Shown piece after piece: positions 20,366 to 40,948 of a stretch of DNA of 64,000 nucleotides. Under the pieces are notes generated by a model, which ran no database searches, was not told where the DNA came from, and worked only from the letters and a program-made list of their open reading frames with translations. Location: positions 4,947,702 through 5,011,701 of the forward strand of contig RPFO01000022.1 of the NCBI GenBank assembly GCA_009746045.1, in the 5' to 3' direction. Both the position numbers and the translations under genes were made by a program. Positions within the stretch are counted from its first letter, which is position 1. The number at the start of each line of letters is the position of its first letter. This DNA comes from Mesostigma viride. Lineage: Eukaryota; Streptophyta; Mesostigmatophyceae; Mesostigmatales; Mesostigmataceae.

Positions 20366-20978
20366 GGGATTTCTTATTCCGGCGCCCAATGGCCTCCAGG
20401 ACAGGCGCGCCGCGCCAGACTCGCCCGCCTTTGGGCTTTGGGCGTCTTGGAATTTGGCTTTGGGCGTCTTGGAAGTTGGCTTTGGGCGTTTGCTCTTTTG
20501 GCAGATTTCGACACCACACTGGTACGACGTAAAAAAGCACAGACTGGTGCGGCGTAACATTTTTAAACTTAGTAAAATTACCGCCGCACAGCCAGCCAGA
20601 ACTGGACAAGGTGATGGCCGCAAGTAGTCGTTGCTGGGCTATCGTATTTGTAGCATGGGGCGTTTCACCGAGTCTGCGGTTAGCATGATGGGGAGGATTC
20701 CTAACCTTCATTATGTGGGTTATGTAGGGGTGCTCATAGTGGCCGGTTTCCCTCGCTTCCTTGTAAACCAGGCTCTGCGTCAAGATCACAGACGACCGGG
20801 TAAGTAGTTGTTCCAGTCTGTTCTAGTTTGTATGACGCCTGCTCTTAGGCGTTCTTGTTATTGTCGTTCATCATCGCCGTGACCGTCGTGGCCAGCAGCG
20901 TGCTTTTTTTACATACCGGATGGTGTCGACTTGTTTATTGATAGCGCATTGGTGAATATCGCTGCATGGAGGAATATC

Positions 20979-21042
20979 AAGGAGACAACCAGCGCAGGCC
21001 AGAAATCGGGAGAATCCGGACCATGGTAGGTCGAGGAATATC
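20979..21042 (+). mobile_element. 54-bp insertion with 10-bp target duplication
   Basis: GAGGAATATC occurs at 20969-20978 and 21033-21042 around an aaggagacaaccagcg... core that is dispersed elsewhere in the window. The matching position in the inverted right arm of the same MULE (about 33820-33835, minus) has GGAGGAATATC once, an empty site. The same insertion is in copy 2 at 35259-35322. Confidence 0.75.
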
Positions 21043-21166
21043 GGCTACAACCCGCGGGAAAGTGCTGGCTCCACTGTGCTTTTTGTATGCAGGATGACGG
21101 CACTGCCAAGCCGGAGACGAATATGACGCTCGTTGTAATGCCAGTCATTCAGACCGACTGCGCGAC

Positions 21167-21665
21167 TGGTTGTGGGATACACGTTCCTGGTTGTGGGATG
21201 GGTTCCTTGTTGTGGGATACTTGTTCCTGGTTGTGGGATGCACGTTCCTGGTTGTAGGATACTTGTTCCTGGTTGTGGGATAGCAGTTCCTGGTTGTGGG
21301 ATACTTGTTCCTGGTTGTGGGATAGTCGTTCCTGGTTGTGGGATACTTGTTCCTGGTGGTGGGAAACACGTTCCTGGTTGTGGGAAACACGTTCCTGGTT
21401 GTGGGATAGTCGTTCCTGGTTGTGGGATACACGTTCCAGGTTGTGGGATACACGTTCCTGGTTGTGGGAAACACGTTCCTGGTTGTGGGAAACACGTTCC
21501 TGGTTGTGGGATACACGTTCCTAGTTGTGGGAAACACGTTCCTGGTTGTGGGATACACGTTCCTAGTTGTGGGATACACGTTCCTGGTTGTGGGATGGGT
21601 TCCTGGTTGTGGGATGCACGTTCCTGGTTGTGGGATAGTTGAGCCTAGTTGTGGGATGTGTTCCT
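21167..21665. repeat. 21-bp tandem array (MULE copy 1)
   Basis: Unit tggttgtgggatacacgttcc with variants, about 24 copies. It starts inside the left-arm counterpart of coding exon B (21093 onward). The repeat length keeps frames open, giving false ORFs on both strands. Confidence 0.9.
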
Positions 21666-21689
21666 GGTCCAAATATAAAGGGGCACGGG

Positions 21690-37233: not shown

Positions 37234-37298
37234 CCACGCACTGCCGGCAGTTACCACTCCCTGTGATGATTGCATGGATGGCTTGTGGGTTGTGGCAT

Positions 37299-37854
37299 TA
37301 ATTAATTAATTAATTAAAATCATAGCTCCGTGGGGAGCATATGTAACACATAGCCCTGAGAAAGGGGCATCTATGGGTTTGTAATACAATCAGGGCGACA
37401 ACCTGCAGGTGTAGGATGTACAACTATCACCTGCTCTGGGTGCACTAGGTGCACCTGCACCTCCATGGTGGTTCATGCCTCCTAATCAAGCACAGGCACC
37501 CAGGGGGGGCTTGAGGAGAGGGCCTAGAAGGCCTGCATGACATATGGGGTGGAAGGTATGTGGCTAGGCTATAGCTAGGGTACACATGGCCTCTCAGCAG
37601 GGAGTAACTCCCTGCATGGGCAAAGCATGACTCGAAATTGCTACGGCTATTGCAAGGGCGGGTGTGGGCCCGTCACGTAGGCATACATGGCCACGTCACT
37701 AAGCTTTCTAGTCTACACTACTGCTATATATTCCCTAGGCTGGGGTGGCTGGGGTGGCTGGGGCGGCAGGGGTCGCCTGCCAGGGCTTGTGGGCGACGTA
37801 GATGTCCGCCCCCTTCCAGTAGACCGGCTTCTGCCCCGCCGTCTGCCGAAGCTT
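37299..37854 (-). mobile_element. ORF1-only retrotransposon (copy 2 of the 23023 insertion)
   Basis: Same insertion and same flanking GGTTGTGGCAT as at 23012-23589. It was therefore in the MULE before the dimer formed. Confidence 0.8.
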
Positions 37855-38219
37855 GGTTGTGGCATGGGGTAGCACTGCCGGCAGTTACCACTCCTTGTGA
37901 TGACTGCATGTCCCCGGCTTGTGTGTTCTTGCATGGCGTGGCACTGCCGGCAGTTACCACTCCTTGTGATGACTCCATGTCCCCTTGACGCAAGGACGGC
38001 TTGTGGGGTCTTGCATGGCGTGGCACTGCCGGCAGTCACCACTCCTTGTGATGACTCCATGTCCCCTTGACGCAAGGACGGCTTGTGGGGTCTTGCATGG
38101 CGTGGCACTGTTGGCAGTCACCACTCCTTGTGTTGTTGTTGTTGTTGTTGTTGTTGTTGTTGTTGGCGTGTTGTTGCCGTTGTTGTTGTTGTTGTTGTTG
38201 TTGTTGTTGTTGTCATCAT

Positions 38220-40507
38220 CATCAATATTGCAACTCTTTCTTGCATGATTGTTCATGTCAACGATGTCACCAGCGGGCTCGCCAGCAGTGCCTTGCACTT
38301 TACCCTCACTGAGACTGCATTGGTGAACGTTGTTGATGAACCAGCAACTGACGGCGATGATACGCATGAAGAAGGAATGGAGTAACCCAGTGTTTCCAAG
38401 ATCACAGTGGTTGTCGTCCTTGGGTTTGTGCGTCACTCCATGGCCACTACATGAACTCATTTTCCTAGTCACCAAAGGCTGGTTTGATACGGTTCTTCTT
38501 GGTGTGGCAATAAAAGAGGCACCACGCCGTAACCACCATTTGCCGAGGTTGGATTTCAGCATCGCACGCCAATAAGAACGAGCGTACGGCATGTTCATGA
38601 ACCTGCCCTCAAAGCAGCACATCAATTTTGCCTGCACCAACACACAGAACAACAACACAACAAAATGAAGCACATCTTACTTACATTCCTCTACAATATG
38701 AAGTAATATTAGTGGGGTGGGGTGGGGGGGAAGGAATTTATACAAATTACTACAAGCAACAAGACATGTATGTGGAGACGCGCTATGGATTGGGGGTGGG
38801 GGGAATAATACAAGCCCTCGTGCATGCGATCCAATAACAATAACAAAGCATATAAACGCTTTCACATTGCAAAATGTCCAGCTTGGCGACGTCCATGCAT
38901 GGTATGCACATGGACATGCTGAGAGGTTCTTCCACACGTTAGATAAGTGTATACCCGTGCACGTGCCCCCGTGCATGTGCACATGCACACACGCATGCAT
39001 ACCAATTACAACACCATATGCATTCATTACTGTACCACAGACATGAGGCTCACTATAAATCTACAATTGTTCAAAAGCATACCAACTGCGATCGGCCACT
39101 GAACCACAGACATACGTTGTATCCTAAGAGTTGAAAAGCATAACAGTTCATCACAACTCATTAACCTATAACTCCTCCATGCCAACAACCGCCCCACTAG
39201 CCTGTTCACAACATATGTAGCTGTGATTTCTTGCTTGATAATAGCCGTGTTAGCCCAGGCACACTTACCTCGTTGCCAAGGCCAGGACGCTGCTTAGCTC
39301 GCTCGCCACCCTCCCAACCCTCCTTCCCCCTGCCCAACGAGTACACGGTGACGGGCCTGCTCATATCATCAAGCAAACTGCTCGAGGTTGTTGCCGTGGA
39401 GTAGACCGGGCTGCTGCCCAGGACTGCCGCCGTGAAGTTGCGGGCGCACAGGGCCAAGGATCCCTTGGGCCCCGCCCAGGCGCCATACAGCAGGGCGGTG
39501 TCCGCAATCAACTGCCATGAAGAGCGCATGGAGTGGGCGAACACATTGCGTGTGGTGTTGCGCTGCGTGTGCAAGGGGGACGATGACCCTGACACTTCAC
39601 TTAGCTCGCCACGCAAATTGGTGGTGCCAACAAGCTTTTGATATTTGTGATCATGGGAGGGGCAGACGGACAAACAAAGCAATGAAACACGGATTCCACA
39701 ATATATAATCAATATAGTAGAGTGCAGAGTAATCTAGAGTGTGACGAGAAGGACGGCCAAAAACCCGTACAGCAAGCACATAATCCCCTACCTTCTCACT
39801 TACTTTAAGTCTTTAACATGCTGCCATGCTAAACCCTGTACCCTAGTAAACCCTGCACACTAGATAAAACCAGGCACGTGCATTGCAATTTTGGGCAGGT
39901 TACAGCTGGCAACTGAAAATGCTTGCCTGATACGCCGCCACGATGCTGCCGTCGACGAAAACCTCCAAGGTAGCAACGTTGCAACGAATCAAATGCGGTT
40001 CTGTTTCAAACGCGCAGTCGGTCTGAACATTGGGCATTATAACGAGCGTCTCCGGCTTGGCGGTGAGGTCATCCTGCGTTCACAAGGAAACACAAAGCAC
40101 ATTCGAGCCGCGGGTTAGAGGCGATATTCCTCCATGTAGCGAAGTTCACCAATGCGCTATCAATAGACAAGTCGATATCAATAAACAAGGCGACACCATC
40201 CGGGCATGTAAAGAACGCTCCTGGCCACGGGTATGTAAAGACGCTACTGGCCACGATGTTCACGGCGATGATGAACGACGATAACAAGAACGCCTAATAG
40301 CATGCGTCATACAAACTAGAACAGACTGGAACAACTACTTACCCGGTCGGCTGTGGGATTCACACACAGCCCACATGACACAGTCCCATGATCAGAACCG
40401 TCTTGCGCACTCGTGTCAGTGCTAGCCCGCACGCCGAAAGATGTCGACACGATGAGCAATAATGTCGAGATAAAAGCCACATGAAGCTTGAATGCATCAT
40501 GCGCCAT
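38220..40507 (-). pseudogene. Orphan 5' exons A-D in MULE copy 2
   Basis: Exons A 40507-40343, B 40073-39927, C 39634-39269 and the start of D from 38631, identical by eye to copy 1. The rest of D, exon E and the transposase exon are deleted; the reading runs through a short Asn repeat into the tandem array. It cannot make transposase. Confidence 0.65.
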
Positions 40508-40948
40508 TGGAAACGGCCGGGACGCTCCTGCTTAAGAACAACGCCGGAGCCTCCTAGGTTGTATGTTGTGGCGGTAATCTGCAAAGTTCGGTTAGCCTGG
40601 AACTGCTCAAAACTCAAAAGTAGTCTGTGAAGTGTACAAGTAAAAATACCAGCAACCGACGACTATCTTGCGGCGGCCATCATCTTGTCCGGTTCTTGCT
40701 GGCTGCCAGTTTATTGCTGCCGGCGTCATGCCTTTGCGGCGGTAAGTTTACGTTGTTTGAATGTTACCAGTCTGTGCTTTTTTACGTCGTACCAGTGTGG
40801 TGTCGAAATCTGCCAAAAGAGCAAACGCCCAAAGCCAACTTCCAAGACGCCCAAAGCCAAATTCCAAGACGCCCAAAGCCCAAAGGCGGGCGAGTCTGGC
40901 GCGGCGCGCCTGTCCTGGAGGCCATTGGGCGCCGGAATAAGAAAGCGC

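Follow-up and report, generated by a model that had tools for sequence, protein, structure and literature searches.

A 64,000-nucleotide stretch of the genome of the streptophyte Mesostigma viride (assembly GCA_009746045.1, contig RPFO01000022.1, forward-strand positions 4,947,702 to 5,011,701; hereafter the window, whose own coordinates are used throughout) contains two near-identical copies of a Mutator-like element (MULE) arranged head-to-tail with no gap between them. Copy 1 (20366-34645, 14,280 bp) is followed directly by copy 2 (34646-40948, 6,303 bp), and the pair shares a single 9-bp target-site duplication (TSD), CAAGTAGAG. The dimer is real as far as the assembled sequence goes, and its exact tip-to-tip joint over one target scar points to transposon ends that were linked together rather than moved to a new site.

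Anatomy of the dimer and its target site

The joint reads AAAGCGC/GGGATTT (slash at the boundary), with no base gained or missing between the two copies, whose first 1,186 bp (left) and last 2,770 bp (right) are identical. The remaining differences in their shared parts are six one-base indels in G runs, the length of a GTT array, and two bases about 20 bp before the internal deletion joint of copy 2. In the 64-kb window CAAGTAGAG occurs exactly twice, at 20357-20365 and 40949-40957, and is not found at the inner joint (34645/34646); a 9-mer match at a fixed place has a chance of 3.8e-6. A first-pass annotation, made from the sequence alone, had given the coordinates and lengths of both copies, which proved exact on re-check, and had described both as complete to their tips, which is borne out by a solo copy elsewhere in the genome (locus A, below) that carries the same tips with its own target duplication. 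Its placement of one 9-bp duplication around the pair rather than around each copy likewise holds, with CAAGTAGAG at the outer borders only, and the second duplication at the inner junction that would have contradicted it is absent from the assembled sequence. A near-perfect palindrome of about 366 bp is centred on the joint; within its 183-bp arms, positions 2 and 4 are the sole mismatches, and its computed folding energy as single-stranded DNA is -289 kcal/mol against a mean of -79 for shuffled sequence. Palindromes of this kind are generally unstable, in keeping with a young structure.

Both flanks of the pair belong to one dispersed host repeat that the pair has split. All four fetched copies of this repeat read through the empty site at 97-98% identity with exactly one CAAGTAGAG each, and for 35 of the 39 listed left-flank matches (window excluded) a right-flank match lies exactly 9 bp away, the other four having no right-flank partner among the matches listed. 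The empty sites thus show an insertion with a single scar. A second haplotype or copy of the unique left flank was not found among the 40 scored of 58 candidates, the first 372 of 500 query bases matching the window only. With 1,936 first-look candidates matching its right part, the host repeat is an abundant one; it apparently begins near GGCCCGGTCTATACGG and may itself be a transposon.

Table 1. Coordinates of the dimer, its parts and its target in the window
Feature	Position	Strand	Basis or remark
Left piece of the dispersed host repeat (target)	20243..20365	+	start approximate
Left CAAGTAGAG of the 9-bp target duplication	20357..20365	none	one copy at empty sites
MULE copy 1, full length, tips GGGA...GCGC	20366..34645	+	end-to-end alignment with full-length sequences at C1803/C1093 and C1535
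Left terminal inverted repeat, copy 1, 183 bp	20366..20548	+	differs from right repeat at bases 2 and 4 only
MULE transposase open frame, 853 codons stop to stop	26876..29437	-	PF10551; first Met is residue 61
Right terminal inverted repeat, copy 1	34463..34645	-	sequence comparison
Tip-to-tip joint GCGC/GGGA	34642..34649	none	zero gap, palindrome centre
MULE copy 2, internally deleted, 6,303 bp	34646..40948	+	no transposase frame
Left terminal inverted repeat, copy 2	34646..34828	+	sequence comparison
Internal deletion joint, copy 2	38115..38141	+	about 8 kb lost into GTT array
Right terminal inverted repeat, copy 2	40766..40948	-	sequence comparison
Right CAAGTAGAG of the target duplication	40949..40957	none	sequence
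Right piece of the dispersed host repeat	40949..42464	+	at least to 42464, where fetched copies end

The element and its relatives in the same genome

Copy 1 has the hallmarks of a MULE: a transposase frame matching PF10551 (E 2.1e-12, 47.7 bits against a cut-off of 27.6), long terminal inverted repeats (183 bp, two mismatches), and a target duplication of 9 bp, both at the dimer and at locus A, within the 8-11 bp (mostly 9 bp) typical of these elements. An additional exon upstream of the transposase frame is possible. Candidate catalytic D, D and E motifs were picked by eye, and a CxC...CxH string, a candidate SWIM zinc finger, was located by script; at E up to 1, no SWIM family appears among the Pfam matches of the frame. 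Relatives of the transposase were not found in a scan of viral contigs, and two contigs sharing a 17-base tip pattern had nothing else in common with copy 1 at E up to 1. No match was returned by tblastn against phage records, and a sequence search of the PDB gave two irrelevant matches only (E 0.31).

Genome searches covered the assembly of 439,911,974 bases in 2,243 contigs. A 229-bp left-end query gave 41 matches, a lower bound given that 40 of 298 candidates were scored. Seven are 100% identical, two of them inside the window and five at three flank contexts: locus A (C1803 and C1093, apparent duplicate contigs with the same flanks on both sides), locus B (C1535 and C189, sharing the left flank), and C2052. 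Copy 1 aligns over its full length with both locus A contigs and with C1535. Apart from two tip bases in C1535 there are no substitutions, and what else differs is the length of G runs, the GTT array and a single 3-bp gap. Copy 1 shares its transposase frame unchanged with these three other sequences from two loci. C189 and C2052 end at contig ends and match less well, each aligned piece having 12-19 mismatches and 12-59 gaps, with most of copy-1 positions 2,833-4,467 absent from C189. The identical transposase frames and the absence of substitutions outside the two tip bases of C1535 are in keeping with very recent movement of the family, and the element is a young, autonomous and probably still active MULE. 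Differences in G-run length were considered as a family-tree signal and dropped, the two contigs with the same locus A flanks disagreeing with each other.

A search for solo copies, which the first-pass annotation had proposed, found a full-length one at locus A, with tips GGGA/GCGC and its own TSD, TGCATCGGC, directly outside them. Since these same tips stand at a solo locus with a TSD outside, the dimer tips are the true tips of the element and the joint holds no spacer; the idea that the outer four bases (GGGA/GCGC) are flank, or together an 8-bp spacer, is ruled out by the tips at other loci. In all 30 end loci read (30 of the 41 matches, two from the window) the matched end starts with GGGA; these loci were found via the left-end query, and right ends are under-sampled. 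Among nine related elements read at both ends, all have GGGA at both, and seven carry a 9- or 10-bp duplication directly at the tips; those in C1413 and C1468 do not, and locus B has no plain one either. The right tip is GCGC in both window copies (34642-34645, 40945-40948) and at locus A, and GGGA in the nine relatives and C1535, which may mean that the outermost tip bases are dispensable for cutting.

Two of these loci are unusual in themselves. A related 6,493-bp element (C1413:3235400-3241892) has CACGAGTCA on both sides, 6 bp (left) and 9 bp (right) away from its tips, as if it had arrived with extra end bases. The full-length copy at C1535:1776240-1790520, without a plain target duplication and with right tip GGGA rather than GCGC, has an imperfect duplicate of its left flank on the right side, separated from the right tip by about 32 bp of ATA-rich filler.

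With exact tips, no other joint of this kind was found in the assembly. Two inner tips facing away from each other within 0-30 bp occur at one site in 440 Mb, which is this joint; the scan used 17 exact bases per tip, so that joints with mutated tips escape it, and the count is an absolute one, not relative to the number of tips in the genome. Within the flanks of up to 1.5 kb that were read at the 30 end loci, a second tip was seen at one locus, again this joint. The companion search for other dimeric copies therefore returned none (exact tips within 30 bp, whole assembly). The first-pass annotation had also seen in the dimer a structure from which a composite element could move. That has no support as yet, with neither a second joint nor another copy of the copy 2 deletion joint, and the exact-tip scan found no second site for the same unit, as a mobile composite transposon would have.

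Internal deletion of copy 2

About 8 kb is missing from copy 2, the transposase gene included. The deletion spans from an 82-bp repeat unit into the GTT array, which occupies 31589-31910 in copy 1 and 38131-38213 (about 28 units) in copy 2, and ends at a short homology. The deletion joint was found nowhere else in the assembly (27-base pattern, up to two mismatches), which fits a local origin of copy 2, and no 6.3-kb parent element is visible in the assembly. No two full-length sequences have a GTT array of the same length, while the rest hardly varies; regional lengths in four sequences are 222, 235, 376 and 395 bases.

Possible origins of the joint

The anatomy, the empty target and the tips are observed, while the routes leading to them are proposals. 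Because nested or adjacent insertion is excluded by the sequence, a right and a left tip were presumably joined as free ends. We tentatively favor, at rather less than even odds, a route in which a single original insertion was present twice, on sister or homologous chromatids, and transposase-cut tips of its two copies were joined. An autonomous MULE would have started as one element, inserting once into a copy of the dispersed repeat and producing the single CAAGTAGAG duplication. The transposase would then have brought together the right end of one copy and, from the sister chromatid or the homologue, the left end of its allelic counterpart. It would have cut each of these ends at the tip, and the cut ends would have been sealed together rather than inserted elsewhere. 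The product would be flank-TSD-element/element-TSD-flank with an exact joint, in which one copy was, or became, internally deleted where the GTT array offers short homology, much as when gap repair is interrupted. The same reaction inside one element would yield a circle with joined tips. This route would need the fewest steps, because it takes its flanks and single scar from the original insertion and requires neither a circle nor a donor dimer nor another target. Precedents come from other transposons: maize Ac is documented to undergo alternative transposition into the sister chromatid (PMC4270019), and alternative transposition, including loss of the spacer between two elements, has been proposed for the MULE VANDAL21 (PMC12312487).

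Several points weigh against joining between chromatids. Spacer loss at VANDAL21 is not always at element borders (PMC12312487), whereas the dimer joint is exact, and end-to-end sealing of MULE tips between chromatids is not described in the portions of the literature examined. Neither a second haplotype of the dimer locus, among the 40 scored left-flank matches, nor a reciprocal empty chromatid was found. The dimer is moreover a single example in the assembly.

Another possibility is an assembly error, in which two contigs or haplotypes, one with a 14-kb and one with a 6.3-kb form, were abutted at a repeat boundary. The assembly consists of 2,243 contigs and has a long N run, apparent duplicate contigs occur at C1803/C1093 (both sides) and C1535/C189 (left side), G-run lengths look noisy, there are odd bases near the copy 2 deletion joint, and young, nearly identical copies are easily mis-joined. 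Yet the joint contains no N and not one base lost or overlapping, both sides lie in one host repeat with the same 9-mer, and in our judgement a chance misjoin would rarely stop exactly at both tips. We hold an error to be rather doubtful but by no means negligible, and if the joint consisted of misassembled circle reads, the tip-to-tip molecule would still be real. Such a circle is the basis of another route that predicts the same anatomy as chromatid tip joining: an excised, tip-joined circle would have recombined with a resident element, or been copied into it during repair, leaving the resident's scar, with the copy 2 deletion marking the place of strand annealing. About 6 kb of near-perfect homology is available between the copies, and MULE circles are reported, VANDAL21 as extrachromosomal circular DNA by Illumina and Oxford Nanopore (ONT) sequencing (PMC10462705), and Mu1, Mu1.7 and the alpha3 MULE as cited in PMC3942029. 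For ISCth4, a bacterial relative, every joint mimic with a spacer between 0 and 10 bp yielded integration products in vitro, the 6-bp spacer performing best (PMC7780238). However, prokaryotic Mutator-type circles retain a flank-derived spacer (6-10 bp, PMC3942029), with spacers of 5, 6, 7 and 19 bp in IS256 and 6-8 bp in ISCth4 (PMC7780238), against zero in the dimer, and no second site in the assembly has the copy 2 deletion joint. The first-pass annotation had suggested an intermediate of this kind, circular or concatemeric and with its ends joined; it is a live option, though in circular form on balance an unlikely one.

The same annotation had suggested that the pair inserted as a unit, a ready-made dimer of 20.6 kb moving by its two outer ends. 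The single TSD enclosing both copies and the intact target at empty sites are compatible with this, and tandem IS30 dimers are named in a title cited by PMC3942029; it is not required, however, as the single scar may be that of one insertion dimerized later. No donor dimer is visible and no other exact-tip joint within 30 bp exists in the assembly, and the inner ends would be expected to compete with the outer ones, making insertion as a unit quite improbable. Less probable still is a history that starts from two consecutive elements separated by CAAGTAGAG, with cutting and joining of reversed ends then removing this 9-bp spacer. Spacer loss between adjacent elements is the commonest structural change reported at the VANDAL21 locus (PMC12312487), but here either the same 9-mer would have to be hit twice or a tandem duplication would have to come first, with an exact loss to follow, and both outer flanks belong to a single host repeat. 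A nested or adjacent second insertion, which nothing beyond the closeness of the copies would favor, is scarcely credible: it would be expected to double AGAAAGCGC or GGGATTTCT at an outer or inner tip or to leave a third CAAGTAGAG, and none is present. Nested insertion, adjacent insertion and recombination between target duplications would each leave a copy of the 9-mer or of a tip, absent here. The exclusion of two ordinary insertions in the first-pass annotation thereby gains the backing of the empty site, the lack of a third CAAGTAGAG and the lack of a doubled tip 9-mer.

Returning to tip joining between chromatids, it is tempting to speculate that a eukaryotic MULE transposase makes exact tip joints regularly, as circles within one element and as dimers between allelic copies. 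We regard this as doubtful on present evidence, but if true, the dimer would be a chromosomal record of regular tip joining and its palindromic joint a ready substrate for the next jump.

Other features of the window

Three long, highly regular minisatellites lie outside the pair, with units of 36 bp (62 copies, 15346-17579), 64 bp (14 copies, 42560-43489) and 40 bp (17 copies, 63310-64000). A segment of 62-84 bp recurs inside both MULE copies (20973-21035, 35253-35315) and at least twice outside them (17665-17748, 46769-46852) at 85-97% identity, and is perhaps a captured or shared small repeat. Minus-strand frames at 7079-7582, with a tubulin-tyrosine ligase (TTL) domain, and at 62595-63260, with an EDR2 C-terminal (EDR2_C) domain, are probably exons of host genes.

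Comparison with known systems

The dimer shares with MULEs at large the transposase domain, long terminal inverted repeats and 9-bp target duplications, but the relatives read at both ends stand alone, whereas the two copies here share one duplication and have fused tips. A zero-gap MULE dimer on one TSD was not found among the titles and abstract openings listed in searches of the open-access literature. VANDAL21 is likewise a MULE whose ends can be abnormally cut and rejoined, or which is found as circles (PMC12312487, PMC10462705); its two copies are head-to-head, about 200 bp apart, and its rearrangements somatic, while the dimer is head-to-tail, in an assembled genome, and exactly joined. 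Among hAT elements, the Hermes and hobo episomes (PMC2803484) are circles with left and right ends joined that derive from an excising eukaryotic transposon, but they belong to another superfamily and have a varying number of nucleotides between the ends.

The IS256 family, whose members transpose by copy-out/paste-in (PMC7780238), and further prokaryotic Mutator-type elements (PMC3942029) form an intermediate in which the termini are joined, as they are in the dimer. Their joints contain a flank-derived spacer, mostly of 5-10 bp with one of 19, while the dimer, known as chromosomal sequence only, has zero bases between tips that are fixed by the solo copy at locus A. That eukaryotic MULEs normally pass through a joined-end intermediate, as their bacterial relatives do, stands as a suggestion (PMC3942029). 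In the SaTar MULE arrays of guayule and rice (PMC5907723), too, MULEs are arrayed without nesting, and a circle with recombination has been proposed. Those elements are small, non-autonomous, often of different families and linked by microsatellites, with fusions that delete element ends; the dimer consists of two copies of one element, with complete tips and no linker, and its flanks are a dispersed repeat with a plain TSD rather than microsatellite. Taken together, the exact tip-to-tip dimer on one target scar appears to be a variant of known behavior, in a family with signs of very recent activity. An exact tip joint in a family with near-identical full-length copies provides both a defined molecule and a genome in which to search for it.

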